DNA from: Cellulomonas sp. JZ18
GTDB taxonomy: Bacteria > Actinomycetota > Actinomycetes > Actinomycetales > Cellulomonadaceae
Assembly: GCF_009720485.1 (NCBI RefSeq)
Contig: NZ_CP045245.1
Coordinates: 3,596,001 to 3,660,000, forward strand
DNA: 64,000 bases
Direction: 5' to 3'
Of this stretch, positions 28,397 through 58,173 are shown piece by piece. Positions within the stretch are counted from its first letter, which is position 1; each line of letters opens with the position of its first letter. The notes beneath the pieces are model-generated. The model was given only the letters and a program-made list of their open reading frames with translations. It was not told the origin of the DNA and searched no databases. Position numbers and translations under genes: made by a program.

Positions 28397-28408
28397 GGTC
28401 ACTGCTGC

Positions 28409-28480
28409 GCGCCCGGAGGGACTCGAACCCCCAACCTTCTGATCCGTAGTCAGATGCTCTATCCGTTGAGCTACGGGCGC
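28409..28480 (-). tRNA. tRNA-Arg(ACG)
   Basis: A 72-nt cloverleaf on the minus strand. Acceptor GCGCCCG pairs with CGGGCGC, D arm GCTC/GAGC, anticodon stem TCTGA/TCAGA enclosing loop CTACGGA with anticodon ACG, and T arm GGGGG/CCCTC with TTCGAGT. CCA is not encoded. A34 is expected to be deaminated to inosine by TadA, whose gene is also in this window. Confidence 0.93.
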
Positions 28481-28637: not shown

Positions 28638-28645
28638 GCGACAGC

Positions 28646-28734
28646 GGAGACGGTGGGATTTGAACCCACGGAAGGGTTGACCCCTTCACGGCCTTAGCAG
28701 GGCCGCGCACTAGACCTGGCTATGCGACGTCTCC
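28646..28734 (-). tRNA. tRNA-Ser(GCT)
   Basis: An 89-nt class II tRNA on the minus strand. Acceptor GGAGACG pairs with CGTCTCC, anticodon stem CGGCC/GGCCG encloses CTGCTAA with anticodon GCT, a long variable arm (GAAGGGGTCAACCCTTC) follows, and the T arm is GTGGG TTCAAAT CCCAC. Decodes AGC/AGU serine. Confidence 0.93.
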
Positions 28735-49715: not shown

Positions 49716-49721
49716 GTGAGC

Positions 49722-49807
49722 GGTAGCGGTGGGATTTGAACCCACGGTGGACTTTCACCCACACACGCTTTCGAGGCGTGCTCCTTAGGCCGCTCGGACA
49801 CGCTACC
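49722..49807 (-). tRNA. tRNA-Ser(CGA)
   Basis: An 86-nt class II tRNA on the minus strand. Acceptor GGTAGCG/CGCTACC, anticodon stem CACGC/GCGTG enclosing CTCGAAA with anticodon CGA, variable arm GGTGGAC-type, T arm GTGGG TTCAAAT CCCAC. Decodes UCG serine, a favoured codon in this GC-rich genome. Confidence 0.93.
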
Positions 49808-52987: not shown

Positions 52988-55900
52988 TCAGCGCTGCGGC
53001 GGCGCGAGGCTCACCGGTGCGGTCGTGCGGACCGTCACGACGCCGAGGAGGTACTGGTCGGCGGACGTCGTGGGCGTCAGCGTCGCGACGTCGGAGGTGA
53101 GCGCCACCTCGGCGAACCCCTTGGCGTCCACGCCGAGGGAGTTGGGCCAGCGCCAGCCGGTCGCCGTCGAGTCGAACGCGTTCGCGCGCGAGCCGCCGCC
53201 GACCACCTGCGACCCGTCCCAGCGGACCGGCGTGAGCGCCCCGACGCCGGACATCGTCAGCCGGTCGTCGCCGGAGCCGCGGTCGCCCTCCCAGCCCACG
53301 ACGCCGATGCGCGCGCGCGTGCCGGCCTCGGCGACGAACGCGAACGCCGGTGAGGCGACGTCGCGGCCGACCCACGACGGGCCCTCGTGCACCGTCACCG
53401 ACCCGCGACCCGCGCCCTCGACGCCGTGCACCACCACGAGGGACCAGCCCGCGTAGTAGGTGGGCTCGCGGTCGGTGCGACCGTCGCTCACCGCGGCGTC
53501 CGCGAGCGCCCACGTCCCCGCCCCGCCGCGCGCCACGAGGGCCGTGACGTCGACCGCGGACTGGTAGTAGCGCCGGCCGCTGTCGTCCTGGACCTCGTGC
53601 ACGGCGTCCGCCGCCGCCCGGACGTCGGTCCACGTCCCGTCCGGCGCGCGCAGGCGCGCCGTCGCGAGGTCGCCGCTCCACCCGTCGCGCGGGCCGCGCA
53701 CGCCGGACCAGTACAGGCCCGCCCACACCACGGGCCGCCCCTGCGGCAGCGCCAGGCGCGTCTCGGAGGACACGGGGACGCGGGCGCGCGCACCCGGGGG
53801 CGGCGCTTCGTCGAGCGGCTGCATGTCGAGGCCGTTGTTGTCCTGCGCGTGGTGGACCGCGGGGCAGGGCGCGGGCCCCCAGCGGCAGACGAGCAGCGGT
53901 GCGCCCACCTCGGTGACGTCGAGGTCGCCGACGCCGGACCAGACGGGCGTCAGGCCCGCGGACGGCGCGACCAGACGCACGGACGCGCGGACGGGGGTGG
54001 CGCCGGCCGCGGTGGCGACGACCTCCGCGGAGCGGTTCAGCGCGCCCGCGACGTGCACGTTCACCTGCACCGGGACGCGCTGCCCGGCGGCCAGCCGGCC
54101 CAGGCGGCACTCGACGGTGCCGCCGCCCCCGGTGCACCCCGCCGTGCCGGGCAGCACCGACCCGGGGTCGTGCGTGACACCGCGGGGCAGCGTCACGCGG
54201 ACCAGGACGTCGTCGGCGTCCGCGGCCGCGCCGCCGTGCGCGGGGCCGGCGACCGCGACGACGAACGCGAGGACGCCTCCGCCGTCGCCGTCGGCGACGG
54301 CCGTCGCCTCGTCGAGCGTGACGACCGGCGCGGTCCCGCGGACGCCGACGAGGACGGCGGGCGACGGGTCGGCGTCGTCGGCGCGCACGGTGACGCTCGC
54401 GGCCCCGAGCTCGCCGACCGCACCCGGCGCACCCGTGAGCGGGACCAGCACGCGTACGGTCTCCCCCGCGAGGACGGGCTCGGGCAGCCGGCACACGGCG
54501 TCGCTGCCCTCGGGGACGCACGCGCCGCCCGCGACGGCCACGGCCCCGCTGGGCGGCGTCACGCGCACCACGGTGCCGCTCGCCGCCAGGTCGCCGTGGT
54601 TGGTCACGTCGACCGGGAGGTGCGCGACGGGACCGAGGCCGACCTCGACCCGGGCGGGTGCCGTGACGACCGGGGCCGCGGGGCGCACCAGCGTGTACGG
54701 GACGCCCAGGCGCGGCGCCGCACCGGAGGGAGCCGGACCGAGCACGGCCGTGACCGTGCCGTCGCCCGTGCGCGTGCCACCGGGGACGGTCAGCGTCAGC
54801 ACCAGGGTCGTGGCCTCGTGACCGCCGAGCGCCGGCAGGCGGCACCGGGTCCGCCCGTCCTCGCGGGTGCAGGACCACGGCGCGGCGGCCTCGGCGGTGA
54901 CGCCGGGCGGCAGGTCGAGGTCGACGGTGGCGGGCGCCTCGGCGGTGACCGGGGCGCCGCCGGCGTTGACGAGCGGGAGGCTCAGCGTCCGCGCGCGACC
55001 CGCGACGAGCTGGACCGGCGAGGGCTCGGCGGCGGGCACGAGGCGCGCGGGCGACGGGTGGACGCGCACCGGCACCGGCGGCGGCGCCCACGCGTGGTAC
55101 CGGCCCGCGATGCGCAGGCCCAGCTCGTGGTCGCCGACGGGCACGGACTCGTCGACCGCGACGTGCAGCACCAGCCGGGCCGTGGCGCCGGGCGCCAGCT
55201 CGGGCAGGGTGCACGCGGCGCTGTGCGCACCCGTCGTGACGCACAGCCAGCCGTCGGTGACCAGCGGGGAGAAGCCGGCGCCGAACGCGAGGACGCCGCC
55301 GACCTCCTCCAGCCGGACGCCGGCGGGCAGCGCCACCTCCGCCAGCAGGTCGACCGCGGGCGCCGCGCCGCCGTTGTGCACGCTGAGCGCGATCTGCTGC
55401 CCGGTGGCGCCGGCGAGGAGCACGGGCGCGTCGTACCGGACGACCACGGCGGGCGCGGGCGGCACCTCGGGGTCGGGCGGCGGTGTCGGGTCGGGCGGCG
55501 GACCTGCCGACGGGTCGGGGCTGGGGACGTCGGGGCCGGGGGCGGTGAGCACCCGGGTGTCGTCGTCCGGCTCGGCCCGGCCGGGACCCGGCTCGGGCTC
55601 GGGCTCGGGCTCTGGCGCGAGCTCCGGCAGGTCCGTCGGGCTCACCGACGGGACGGGCAGCGGCTCGGGGAGCACCCCGTCGGTCGTGCCCGGCGACGGG
55701 GCGACGGTGCCGACCAGCGCGGTGCCCGAGACGGTCGGCGACGCGGTCGCACCGGCGGTGCCCGCCCCGGGCCCGAGCAGCTGCGTCGCACCGACGACCA
55801 CGGCGGCGACGACCGCCACCGCGCCGACCGTCGCGGCTGCCGCGGTGGCCGTGACCCCGCCCAGGGCGACGACGCCGCCGGTGGCCGCGGCACCGGCGGC

Positions 55901-57091
55901 CGCGCCCGCGGCTCCCCCGACGGCCGCGATCCCGGCCGGGGCGCTCGCGACGCCGGCGACGGCGCCGACGAGGCCGCCGGCGGCGGTCCCCGCGACGGCC
56001 GACCCGCCCGCCGCGGCACCCGCCGCACCCCCTGCGGCGCCGGCCGCACCACCGGCGGCACCGCCCGCGGCACCGCCGGCCCCCGCCGCCGTGCCCCCGC
56101 TCGCCGCACCCGCGGCGGCCCCGCTCCCGGCGGCACCGCCCCCGGCCGCACCACTCCCGGCCGCACCACTCCCGGCCGCCGCGCTCCCGGCACCCCCGGC
56201 GGTACCCGCGGCACCGCCGCCGACGGCGCCGGCCGACGGCGCGGCCGCGAGCGCGGCGGTGCCCGCACCGAGCCCGCCGCCCAGGGGCAGCGGGTGCCGC
56301 AGCGCACCGAGCCCGAGCAGCCCGAGCACGAGCGGCGCCACGACGGCCCGCATGCCGTGGTTGACGTCGCCCAGCTCGAGGACGAGCGCGCGGCAGTCGC
56401 CGCAGTCCTCCAGGTGCCGCTCGACGTGCCCGGTGTCACGCGTGCCGAGCCCGCCGCGCACGTACGACCCGAGCTTGCCGGCGACTCCGCGGCACCCCTC
56501 CTCGAGCGGGTCGTGCAGGTGCTGCTGCAGGTACGCCTGACGCAGCCCCTCGCGGGCCCGGTAGGCGAGGGCCGCGGCGCTGTTGGCGCTGAGCCCCAGC
56601 ACGGGGGCGATCTCGGCGGGCGTGAGGCCCTCGACCTCCGCGTGCCACAGGACGGCCTGCCAGCGCTCCGGCAGCGAGCGGAACGCGCGGGCGACGACGC
56701 TGCGCTCGAAGCCGGCGAGCGCGGGCGCCTCCGCGGCCTCGACGGGCCGCGCCGCGGTCTCCAGGGTGGCGACGTCGTCGGTCGGCTCGACGCGCCGGCC
56801 GGCGGTCCGGTGCACCGCGGCCGTCCGGCGCACCGCCGTGAACAGGTAGGCGCGGAACGCGACCTCGGGCCCGGCCCCGCCCCGGATCGCGCGGTGCACG
56901 GCGGCGAACGCGTCGGCGACGACGTCCTCGGCGTCGGCCGTCGAGTCGCAGTACTGGCGCGCGACGACGAGCGCGGCACCCGCGTGCCGCTCGTACAGCC
57001 GGCCGAACGCGTCGCCGTCCCCGCCCCGCGTCGCACGCAGCAGCGCGGCGTCATCCTCGATGCCGCCGTCCGCGCCCCCGTCACGCACCAC
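52988..57091 (-). CDS. ECF sigma factor fused to zinc-finger, transmembrane helix and large extracellular domain
   Basis: A 1,367-residue single chain. Region 2 (about 12-90) has FGRLYERHAGAALVVARQYC and DAEDVVADAFAAV; region 4 (about 130-185) has RSLPERWQAVLWHAEVEGLT and PAEIAPVLGLSANSAAALAY. A zinc-finger-like anti-sigma segment follows (HVERHLEDCGDCRALVLELG). A long Ala/Gly-rich tract with hydrophobic spans, the last being TVGAVAVVAAVVVGATQ, crosses the membrane near 430-450. A Pro-rich linker leads to several DUF11-like beta modules (about 560-1130). The last 230 residues (VVWAGLYWSGVRG, YYAGWSLVVVHGVEGAG, IGVVGWEGDRGSGDD) are homologous to the N-terminal domain of the LAxTG giant. It should act as a one-protein outside-in regulator, probably needing proteolysis to free the sigma part. 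GTG start with AGGGG 8 nt upstream. Confidence 0.85.
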   Translation of the reverse strand: MVRDGGADGGIEDDAALLRATRGGDGDAFGRLYERHAGAALVVARQYCDSTADAEDVVADAFAAVHRAIRGGAGPEVAFRAYLFTAVRRTAAVHRTAGRRVEPTDDVATLETAARPVEAAEAPALAGFERSVVARAFRSLPERWQAVLWHAEVEGLTPAEIAPVLGLSANSAAALAYRAREGLRQAYLQQHLHDPLEEGCRGVAGKLGSYVRGGLGTRDTGHVERHLEDCGDCRALVLELGDVNHGMRAVVAPLVLGLLGLGALRHPLPLGGGLGAGTAALAAAPSAGAVGGGAAGTAGGAGSAAAGSGAAGSGAAGGGAAGSGAAAGAASGGTAAGAGGAAGGAAGGAAGAAGGAAGAAAGGSAVAGTAAGGLVGAVAGVASAPAGIAAVGGAAGAAAGAAATGGVVALGGVTATAAAATVGAVAVVAAVVVGATQLLGPGAGTAGATASPTVSGTALVGTVAPSPGTTDGVLPEPLPVPSVSPTDLPELAPEPEPEPEPGPGRAEPDDDTRVLTAPGPDVPSPDPSAGPPPDPTPPPDPEVPPAPAVVVRYDAPVLLAGATGQQIALSVHNGGAAPAVDLLAEVALPAGVRLEEVGGVLAFGAGFSPLVTDGWLCVTTGAHSAACTLPELAPGATARLVLHVAVDESVPVGDHELGLRIAGRYHAWAPPPVPVRVHPSPARLVPAAEPSPVQLVAGRARTLSLPLVNAGGAPVTAEAPATVDLDLPPGVTAEAAAPWSCTREDGRTRCRLPALGGHEATTLVLTLTVPGGTRTGDGTVTAVLGPAPSGAAPRLGVPYTLVRPAAPVVTAPARVEVGLGPVAHLPVDVTNHGDLAASGTVVRVTPPSGAVAVAGGACVPEGSDAVCRLPEPVLAGETVRVLVPLTGAPGAVGELGAASVTVRADDADPSPAVLVGVRGTAPVVTLDEATAVADGDGGGVLAFVVAVAGPAHGGAAADADDVLVRVTLPRGVTHDPGSVLPGTAGCTGGGGTVECRLGRLAAGQRVPVQVNVHVAGALNRSAEVVATAAGATPVRASVRLVAPSAGLTPVWSGVGDLDVTEVGAPLLVCRWGPAPCPAVHHAQDNNGLDMQPLDEAPPPGARARVPVSSETRLALPQGRPVVWAGLYWSGVRGPRDGWSGDLATARLRAPDGTWTDVRAAADAVHEVQDDSGRRYYQSAVDVTALVARGGAGTWALADAAVSDGRTDREPTYYAGWSLVVVHGVEGAGRGSVTVHEGPSWVGRDVASPAFAFVAEAGTRARIGVVGWEGDRGSGDDRLTMSGVGALTPVRWDGSQVVGGGSRANAFDSTATGWRWPNSLGVDAKGFAEVALTSDVATLTPTTSADQYLLGVVTVRTTAPVSLAPPQR

Positions 57092-57321
57092 GTCCGGACC
57101 CCTGTCGCCGTCGGTCCCGAGCGCAAGGGTGCCATATGCGACCGAACGGAAGAACCCGGCGAACGGGTGGCGAGCGGACGGTACGAGGTGGGGCGACCGG
57201 GCCCGCACGGGGGTGGCAGGGACGACCTGCGCGGACGCCTCCCGTCCACCCGCACGGGTGAAAAGCGCGCGGGTGGGGCGAAGCCGCGTCATGGAGTGCC
57301 GGCAGCGCCCTCTCATCCGGC

Positions 57322-58173
57322 GTGACGACCCACATCGGCAAGGACGGTCACGCCCCGGGCGAGGCCCTGCGCGAGCGCTGGCGCCGTCGCAGCGTCGGCT
57401 CCGTGTGGCGACGGCCGTCCGACTGGTACCACCCGGCGGTCGACGCGCTCGCCGGTGCGGTGCTCGAGGACGAGGACCCGGCGGCGGCCGCCTGGGAGCT
57501 GGGGCGCGCCCGCGGCGAGCACGGCGTCGGGATCGGCGAGGCGATCGACGACCTCGTCTGCCTGTACCGCACCACCGGGCGCGACACCCCGCCCATGGAC
57601 GCGGTCCGCGCGCTGAACGAGGGCTGGGCCGACGCACAGGCCGAGCTGGTCGTCACGGGGTCGTGCGTGGACGCCGAGACGGGGCTGCCGACGCAGCAGT
57701 ACCTGGGCGTGCGGCTCGCGGAGACCTACCTGCAGGCCGACGAGCAGGACGTGCACCCGGCGGCCCTGCACGGGCTCGCGGTGGTCGACGTCGCGGCGGG
57801 GCACGCCTCCGGGTTCCTGCGGGCGGCACGGTCGGCGGCCGTCGGCGCCGCGCTGCGCTCGGTGTTCGGGACGGGGCACCCGATGGCGACCCTCGGCGGC
57901 GGGGTGTTCGTCGTCCTCACGCGCACGCAGGACGACCTCGACGGGCAGATCGACGCGCTGCGTCGGCAGGTCGCCGAGCGGTGCGCCGACCACGACGTGC
58001 GGGGCGCGACCCGCCAGCCCGTGCGGGTCTGGCACGAGGCGCTGCCCGGCACGCACGCGGGCGCGCTGCACCGCCTGGCGTCCCTCGCCCGGCCGGAGCC
58101 CTGGACGGGCGTGCCGCGTCCGGCGGTCCCGCCGACGCTCGGCGACCCCTCCGCGGGCGACCTGCCGGGCTGA
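57322..58173 (+). CDS. degenerate GGDEF-like protein
   Basis: A 283-residue soluble protein. DAETGLPTQQYLGVRLAETY matches the start of a GGDEF domain (D-LTGL-NR pattern), and LGGGVFVVLTRTQDDLD sits where RxGGDEF is expected but reads GGGVF, lacking the catalytic acids; it is therefore unlikely to make c-di-GMP. The N-terminal 120 residues are helical (IGEAIDDLVCLYRTTGRDTP), a likely partner or sensing domain. GTG start with no ribosome site. It is divergent from the transmembrane sigma factor across a 230-bp shared intergenic region, suggesting co-regulation. Confidence 0.65.
   Translation: MTTHIGKDGHAPGEALRERWRRRSVGSVWRRPSDWYHPAVDALAGAVLEDEDPAAAAWELGRARGEHGVGIGEAIDDLVCLYRTTGRDTPPMDAVRALNEGWADAQAELVVTGSCVDAETGLPTQQYLGVRLAETYLQADEQDVHPAALHGLAVVDVAAGHASGFLRAARSAAVGAALRSVFGTGHPMATLGGGVFVVLTRTQDDLDGQIDALRRQVAERCADHDVRGATRQPVRVWHEALPGTHAGALHRLASLARPEPWTGVPRPAVPPTLGDPSAGDLPG

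Follow-up and report, generated by a model that had tools for sequence, protein, structure and literature searches.

The 64,000-nucleotide stretch of Cellulomonas sp. JZ18 DNA analysed here (contig NZ_CP045245.1, positions 3,596,001 to 3,660,000; the window) carries a gene for a transmembrane sigma factor of the extracytoplasmic function (ECF) type at 52988..57091 on the minus strand. The encoded protein is probably a one-protein outside-in switch for transcription, with a sigma part that reads CGTCAY-N17-STCTCAY at a small set of regulator genes. The architecture of the protein, the motif, the genes behind the motif and the co-occurrence of motif and sigma factor are observed directly in the genomes compared. 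We infer, with good support, that this sigma factor is the one that reads the motif, because the motif is conserved and because the two co-occur. The fused transmembrane architecture itself is known already, from groups ECF48, ECF52 and ECF53 and from SCO4117. What is new is the target set, i.e., the promoter motif together with the gene families behind it, and no paper listed in searches of the open-licence PMC literature, one of them showing 10 of 69 papers, describes this regulon. Comparing related genomes yields a sharply defined candidate promoter and two to three target families at least, along with a promoter that was swapped naturally in a clade lacking the sigma factor. The genes controlled by one-protein switches become directly testable with a reporter, which also offers a read-out with which to seek the signal.

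Sigma factor, anti-sigma domain and outside region in one frame

The gene is a single open frame of 1367 codons that runs from a GTG start at 57091 to a stop at 52988, and no internal stop interrupts the minus-strand frame between these positions. GC content by codon position is coding-like, at 0.83/0.54/0.97 for the sigma part and 0.81/0.61/0.97 for the outside part. Sigma-70 region 2 (56807..56998, residues 32–95; this and all further parts of the protein lie on the minus strand) matches Pfam Sigma70_r2 (PF04542, 5.6e-10). AlphaFold models it as confident helices, which superpose on region 2 of an engineered E. coli sigmaE (5or5) at 1.6 Å over 92 columns. Region 4 (56549..56695, residues 133–181) matches Sigma70_r4_2 (PF08281, 4.2e-07) and is spanned by sequence matches to 1or7 and 6jbq. 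Regions 2 and 4 are present without region 3, as in other ECF factors, and TIGR02937 is matched at 2.6e-17. A zinc anti-sigma domain follows (56390..56494, residues 200–234; zf-HC2, PF13490, 2.4e-05), in which C200, H226, C230 and C233 are each at least 90% conserved among 68 sequences. This arrangement, a cysteine and then His-X3-Cys-X2-Cys after the sigma domain, is that of the class-I (zinc) anti-sigma factors, and from its type the domain is predicted to bind zinc and inhibit the sigma factor. The family profile of the zinc part also matches chain 3hug_B (4.3e-04), which we take to be the anti-sigma factor RslA. An earlier note on this DNA, made from its letters, had described one uninterrupted frame with sigma regions 2 and 4 and a zinc-finger-like anti-sigma segment. 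That description holds, with the strand, which the note lacked, now supplied.

The zinc domain leads into a helix with a conserved APLVLG stretch (56297..56401, residues 231–265), which in the model starts inside the domain. Beyond it lie an Ala/Gly linker with no K, R, D or E (55862..56296, residues 266–410; predicted local distance difference test score, pLDDT, about 35), a membrane helix predicted from hydropathy (55784..55861, residues about 411–436; AlphaFold helix at 419–435, of low confidence) and a Pro-rich stalk recognised from sequence (55442..55783, residues 437–550). Four immunoglobulin (Ig)-like/DUF11 modules come next (53993..55441; DUF11 5.4e-11), at about 549–662, 673–785, 794–903 and 913–1027, with boundaries set by eye from the strands. 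The chain closes with an all-beta, DUF3344-like end domain (52988..53992, residues about 1034–1357).

The end domain of the window protein has no Pfam match of its own, and its relatives score for DUF3344 under the cut-off of 27.2 (P0072 23.1, P0088 22.2 and P0128 20.3 bits). A profile of this domain detects it in 27 of the 80 related loci described below and also in P0128, which has an apparent signal peptide and no sigma part, and for this reason the outside part looks exchangeable. The AlphaFold model of residues 1–445 (68 sequences) has a mean pLDDT of 67.1 and is confident for the sigma and zinc domains and most of helix 231–265; fold comparison of this model matched sigma factors. The model of the outside region (57 sequences; mean pLDDT 91.6) consists of Ig-like modules and a beta end domain. 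It matches just generic Ig-like tandems, for example ciliary, complement and integrin chains, so a ligand guess from this comparison was rejected.

A candidate promoter facing the divergent gene

The predicted target promoter lies at 57287..57316 on the plus strand, with CGTCAT as the −35 box (57287–57292), an 18-bp gap and TCTCAT as the −10 box (57311–57316). The paired boxes were first spotted by reading the intergenic regions between the sigma gene and its divergent GGDEF-like neighbour. When the pattern CGTCAY-N13to19-STCTCAY was searched in the 80 loci and the window, it had 31 matches in 1.16 Mb. Thirty of these lie between the sigma gene and the divergent gene, face the divergent gene and have a 17-nt spacer; one is elsewhere. 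The exact motif is present in this intergenic region in 29 of the 80 loci as well as in the window. In the 51 loci without an exact copy, the motif profile reaches at least 10 in 22, versus 2.7% of dinucleotide shuffles and 1/51 on the other strand. Several distant loci keep the −35 as CGCGTCAY and have an altered −10, for example CCGTC in L038, L044 and L056, which resembles the classical ECF −10. At the GGDEF and EAL-like genes, the −10 is followed by the start codon after 3–5 nt. An ECF-type core promoter is suggested for CGTCAY-N17-STCTCAY by the spacing of the boxes, by this short distance to the start codon, which two of the three families show, and by the absence of a TANNNT box.

The earlier note had pointed to 57092–57321 as the first place to look for a −35/−10 motif shared by the sigma gene's own promoter and its targets. 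The motif is indeed there, facing the divergent gene; the sharing did not hold up, since none of the 31 matches in the loci and the window is at the sigma gene's own promoter. A different block, around TATGGCACCCT, lies upstream of the sigma gene (57121..57139, minus strand). It was found by eye and recurs, with variation, in about 13 of the 17 loci printed with the window. This block, which differs from the target motif, may possibly be the sigma gene's own promoter.

The divergent gene (57322..58173, plus strand; GTG start 5 nt past the −10) encodes a degenerate GGDEF protein of 283 amino acids, and its relatives occupy the same divergent position in 72 of the 80 loci. Pfam names no domain in the window's divergent protein. 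Among 30 members of the family there is one GGDEF_2 match (0.0035) and one phosphoribosyltransferase-domain match, the latter probably from L056, whose automatic frame exceeds the others in length. It is the profile of these 30 members that points to a GGDEF fold, through matches to the GGDEF structures 7e6g (1.1e-06) and FimX (1.3e-04). The GGDEF signature is lost in the window protein, where the site reads GGGVF, making a catalytic role unlikely.

Predicted target genes within Cellulomonas

Across 60 Cellulomonas genomes, the exact pattern CGTCAY-N17-STCTCAY occurs at 131 sites, compared with 3 for the reversed pattern used as a control. There are 4 matches to a looser pattern in the window's own genome (4.04 Mb), and the 2 exact ones precede the divergent gene and a gene for a small LuxR-type regulator of about 78 amino acids that adjoins gcvH. 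By downstream gene, the 131 sites divide into LuxR-type (45), GGDEF-like (32), EAL-like (27) and other (27), so that 104 fall into three families. For this count, 104 sites were compared with the three proteins and the other 27 were assigned to the GGDEF gene by coordinates; L194 was counted as "other" for its 38% match, and L083 and L084, which fit the looser pattern, were dropped. Pfam finds GerE and EAL in one representative each of the LuxR-type and EAL-like families.

Genomes were called sigma-bearing if they have a sigma factor of at least 65% identity, which holds for 46 of the 60. Of the other 14, G001 and G048 have only a 46–47% relative and 12 have no match at E<=1e-20. The LuxR-type gene is present in all 60 genomes (E<=1e-18) and is adjoined by gcvH in 27 of the 28 examined, G038 being the exception. 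At its promoter, 43 of the 46 sigma-bearing genomes have the exact motif and the remaining three (G004, G025 and G058) are one −10 base off. The LuxR-type promoters of 12 genomes without an orthologue of the sigma factor (10 with no match, plus G001 and G048) lack the motif even under a looser pattern, and 11 of these 12 keep the LuxR-type gene beside gcvH. In the sigma-less clade formed by 11 genomes, a different conserved sequence, around TTGCCGATCA, lies upstream of the LuxR-type gene (regions L238–L243 and L245–L249); it recalls the −10 of FliA/WhiG promoters.

The divergent GGDEF gene is found in 45 of the 46 sigma-bearing genomes (not in G045, an assembly of 520 contigs) and in none of the other 14. 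The EAL-like gene (at least 52% identity) is found in 41 genomes. These are 40 of the 46 sigma-bearing ones plus G013; the 13 remaining genomes without the sigma factor have none, and the window's own species lacks it too.

The motif beyond the genus

At the level of the order, the exact pattern and its reversed control were counted in 198 genomes, with the caution that the reversed pattern understates chance at this level. There are 93 sites in the 33 genomes with a sigma factor of at least 50% identity (2.82 per genome; reversed 0.09), 43 in the 30 with a weaker sigma only (1.43; reversed 0.33) and 140 in the 135 with no sigma at E 1e-30 (1.04; reversed 0.22). For family f9, to which Demequina belongs, 55 sites were counted across 13 genomes, against 2 for the control. 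Twenty f9 regions were picked by hand from among the listed sites, with downstream frames chosen by script. A MerR-type helix-turn-helix (HTH) protein of 65–69 amino acids, which we take to be BldC-like, follows the site in 5 regions from five genomes (L220, L224, L228, L230 and L236). An LRV-repeat protein does so in 6 (L218, L222, L223, L226, L234 and L235), a sensor-like membrane protein in 2 (L219 and L225) and a secreted protein in 2 (L227 and L237); the script found no shared target in the other 5. No LuxR-type or EAL-like match was found among the f9 regions compared, L226 being left unclassified. These regions suggest that a developmental regulator, the BldC-like HTH protein, is under an orthologous sigma factor in Demequina.

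Membrane topology

The hydropathy peak of the window protein starts at 407–425. The first hydrophobic stretch, at about 246–264, is in the model the end of the helix 231–265 that begins in the zinc domain, and in many members outside Cellulomonas and Demequina this helix is followed by a K/R-bearing linker. Thus, helix 231–265 is probably not a membrane crossing. The Ala/Gly-rich tract was the crossing segment in the earlier note; the tract exists (about 266–410), and the crossing is probably not made by it, as it has no confident structure and there is a separate helix at 419–435, within the predicted segment 411–436. Charges were counted around the last hydrophobic helix in 74 members. When summed, K+R amount to 66 before the helix and 11 after it, and D+E to 8 before and 96 after, which puts the sigma part on the cytoplasmic side of a single crossing and the fibre on the outer side. 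Member by member, K+R are more numerous before the helix in 38, more numerous after it in 3 and tied in 33; the ties are mostly Cellulomonas, Demequina and relatives, whose linkers are uncharged. The two hydrophobic segments are 8–365 residues apart in the 74 members, with the value of 8 coming from L013, which runs off its contig. The outside portion of the window protein comprises about 930 residues. The large extracellular region with beta modules that the earlier note had proposed is thereby supported.

How widely the fusion is conserved

When residues 1–250 were compared with proteins of 752–2392 amino acids, there were 975 matches at E<=1e-3 among 8000 scored candidates, of which the best 120 were listed. 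The 80 named loci used throughout are the best of 475 from a scan of named genomes. A complete fused frame, of 430–2149 amino acids, is present in 73 of the 80. The remaining seven consist of 5 that run off their contig and 2 that are complete but short (L008, 317 amino acids; L026, 323). The genera represented include Cellulomonas, Actinotalea, Cellulosimicrobium, Isoptericola, Demequina, Amycolatopsis, Lentzea, Streptosporangium, Nocardiopsis and Kribbella.

Stand-alone sigma-zinc proteins that lack a membrane part also exist. Three of them (P0194, P0199 and P0205; 249–250 amino acids, 54–56% identical) lie on contigs of 295–538 kb. They belong to more distant relatives and count against a universal fusion. 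Among the other short copies, many are annotated as partial, and the two that were read (P0139 and P0161) diverge past the anti-sigma helix. Database copies are often split or partial around the Ala/Gly tract (55862–56296 in the window; P0129, P0122, P0139 and P0161). These splits are probably assembly breaks, and fused copies are therefore undercounted in draft genomes.

Proposed mechanism and alternatives

In the proposed mechanism, the N-terminal ECF sigma factor would be kept inactive by the zinc anti-sigma domain of the same chain, acting in cis, as analogy and the domain type suggest. A floppy Ala/Gly linker would tie the anti-sigma domain to the single membrane helix and, on the outside, the Pro-rich stalk and four Ig-like modules would carry the end domain as far as the wall or past it. 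In response to a signal acting on this fibre, the chain would be cut close to the membrane and the sigma part set free, by analogy with IutY and with the proposal for ECF52. The freed sigma factor would then guide RNA polymerase to CGTCAY-N17-STCTCAY promoters. Its targets would be the divergent degenerate-GGDEF gene and the small LuxR-type regulator beside gcvH, with the EAL-like gene as a further target in most sigma-bearing Cellulomonas, though not in the window's own species. More broadly, we lean towards the view that this is an ancient actinobacterial unit, in which a transmembrane ECF sigma factor with an exchangeable fibre is paired with a divergent degenerate-GGDEF gene. Such a unit would regulate a very small set of regulators (degenerate GGDEF, EAL-like and LuxR-type HTH proteins, and a BldC-like HTH protein in Demequina) through an unusual −35, GCGTCAT, and would link the state of the cell surface to cyclic di-GMP-type and developmental regulators.

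Several observations weigh against a sigma switch acting through this motif. The pattern alone is weak outside Cellulomonas, because genomes without the sigma factor still have 1.04 sites on average and 6 of the 33 genomes with a sigma of at least 50% identity have none; co-occurrence at the level of the order is weak. The Demequina sites fetched precede other genes than in Cellulomonas. Within the genus, 27 of the 131 sites have no shared target. The 45 divergent-gene promoters comprise 32 exact copies, 9 that keep the −35 and have drifted at the −10, and 4 without GCGTCAY, and the EAL-like promoter is exact in just 27 of the 41 genomes that have the gene. The 11 sigma-less genomes form one clade (support 0.991) in a GcvH+LuxR tree of 27 of the 28 chosen genomes, from which G038 was left out because its LuxR-type copy has no gcvH beside it. 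The promoter swap is therefore one event, and Fisher values, which assume independence, were not used. G007 (280 contigs) and G013 (920 contigs) have the motif and no detected sigma factor; since these fragmented assemblies lack the divergent gene too, the whole sigma locus may be missing from them. For the protein itself, the packing of sigma on anti-sigma is unconfirmed, with a whole-chain root-mean-square deviation of 15–18 Å to sigmaE chains. Some of these points would be expected if the motif were read by another factor, be it a second sigma or an activator (the LuxR-type protein, for instance), that was lost or rewired in the one sigma-less clade along with a fused protein that just shares the neighbourhood. 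The single loss on the tree, the two motif-bearing genomes without a sigma and the different targets in Demequina all fit this idea. We nevertheless regard it as unlikely: the motif has the shape of a core promoter, with two boxes 18 bp apart and, at the GGDEF and EAL-like genes, a start codon 3–5 nt past the −10; the LuxR-type gene is kept without the motif in the sigma-less clade; and the motif faces the sigma gene's divergent neighbour in several families.

Other alternatives concern the chain rather than the motif. The notion that a frameshift or assembly error joined a sigma gene to a surface-protein gene draws on draft assemblies in which some relatives look split at the Ala/Gly tract, and on the short stand-alone sigma-zinc proteins of distant relatives. 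It is ruled out, to near certainty, because 73 of the 80 loci have the fused frame complete. The earlier note's claim that no frameshift or stop separates the sigma and outside parts is thus upheld; as to orthologues in the form of two separate genes, which it had also raised, the 73 loci are fused, and the stand-alone proteins occur in distant relatives. In a second scheme, segments 246–264 and 411–436 both span the membrane, leaving the beta modules in the cytoplasm. The first segment is indeed hydrophobic (19-residue Kyte-Doolittle mean of 1.84 here and up to 2.35 in relatives), and 33 of the 74 members tie in K+R around the last helix. This topology was rejected as very improbable on the summed charges of the 74 members, which read inside before the last helix and outside after it; the model makes the first segment a prolongation of the zinc-domain helix, and DUF11 modules with paired cysteines are usually extracellular. 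Alternatively, the protein might act uncleaved, as a transcription factor that stays in the membrane, with its sigma part switched there by a change of conformation or by contact with another protein. No protease site is known in the window protein, none having been looked for, and cleavage of ECF52 proteins is a proposal in PMC5826349. We find this account doubtful, if less so than a different reader of the motif, because IutY, also a fused sigma/anti-sigma, is freed by Prc and RseP (PMC8999054), and because the authors of the SCO4117 study read a truncated form as showing that the sigma domain alone can modulate development (PMC5826349).

Elsewhere in the window, there are three tRNA genes, all on the minus strand: tRNA-Arg(acg) at 28407–28480, tRNA-Ser(gct) at 28644–28734 and tRNA-Ser(cga) at 49720–49807.

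Comparison with known systems

The SigL-RslA and SigW-RsiW pairs share the sigma fold and the zinc anti-sigma domain with the window protein, as the profile match to 3hug_B illustrates, and differ in that sigma and anti-sigma are encoded by separate genes. IutY of Pseudomonas putida acts in iron-starvation cell-surface signalling and is not known to have a long Ig-like fibre. Like the window protein, IutY (ECF243) is a sigma factor fused to a membrane anti-sigma, and its release by Prc and RseP has been shown (PMC8999054). The same review describes groups ECF48, ECF52 and ECF53 as sigma factors fused at the C-terminus to extensions of up to 400 residues, and ECF48 and ECF53 as having a zinc finger, one or two membrane helices and an expected release by proteolysis; about 1130 residues lie past the zinc finger in the window protein.

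A further likeness is to ECF52, which is reported only from Actinobacteria (PMC5826349). Its member SCO4117 of Streptomyces coelicolor, called the best understood actinobacterial fused ECF in PMC8999054 and PMC5826349, likewise has a sigma factor, zinc finger, membrane region, Pro-rich stretch and outside domain (PMC5826349). The likeness is one of domain order, compared by published description. The order is therefore not unusual, contrary to the earlier note. Only the outside modules differ from those of ECF52, and the end domain is shared with sigma-free P0128. SCO4117 has a carbohydrate-binding module where the window protein has DUF11 modules and a DUF3344-like domain; Pfam and NCBIfam gave no such module (smart00776) for the protein or its end domain, one of these results being the best 25 of 54 matches. 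The motif proposed for SCO4117, CSGYN-17-SRHA, is termed theoretical by its authors (PMC5826349) and differs from CGTCAY-N17-STCTCAY. A copy of the SCO4117 motif is reported at one of the promoters of SCO4117 itself, whereas the promoter of the window sigma gene has no copy of the motif found here. The neighbour of SCO4117 is atrA, whereas here it is the divergent degenerate-GGDEF gene.

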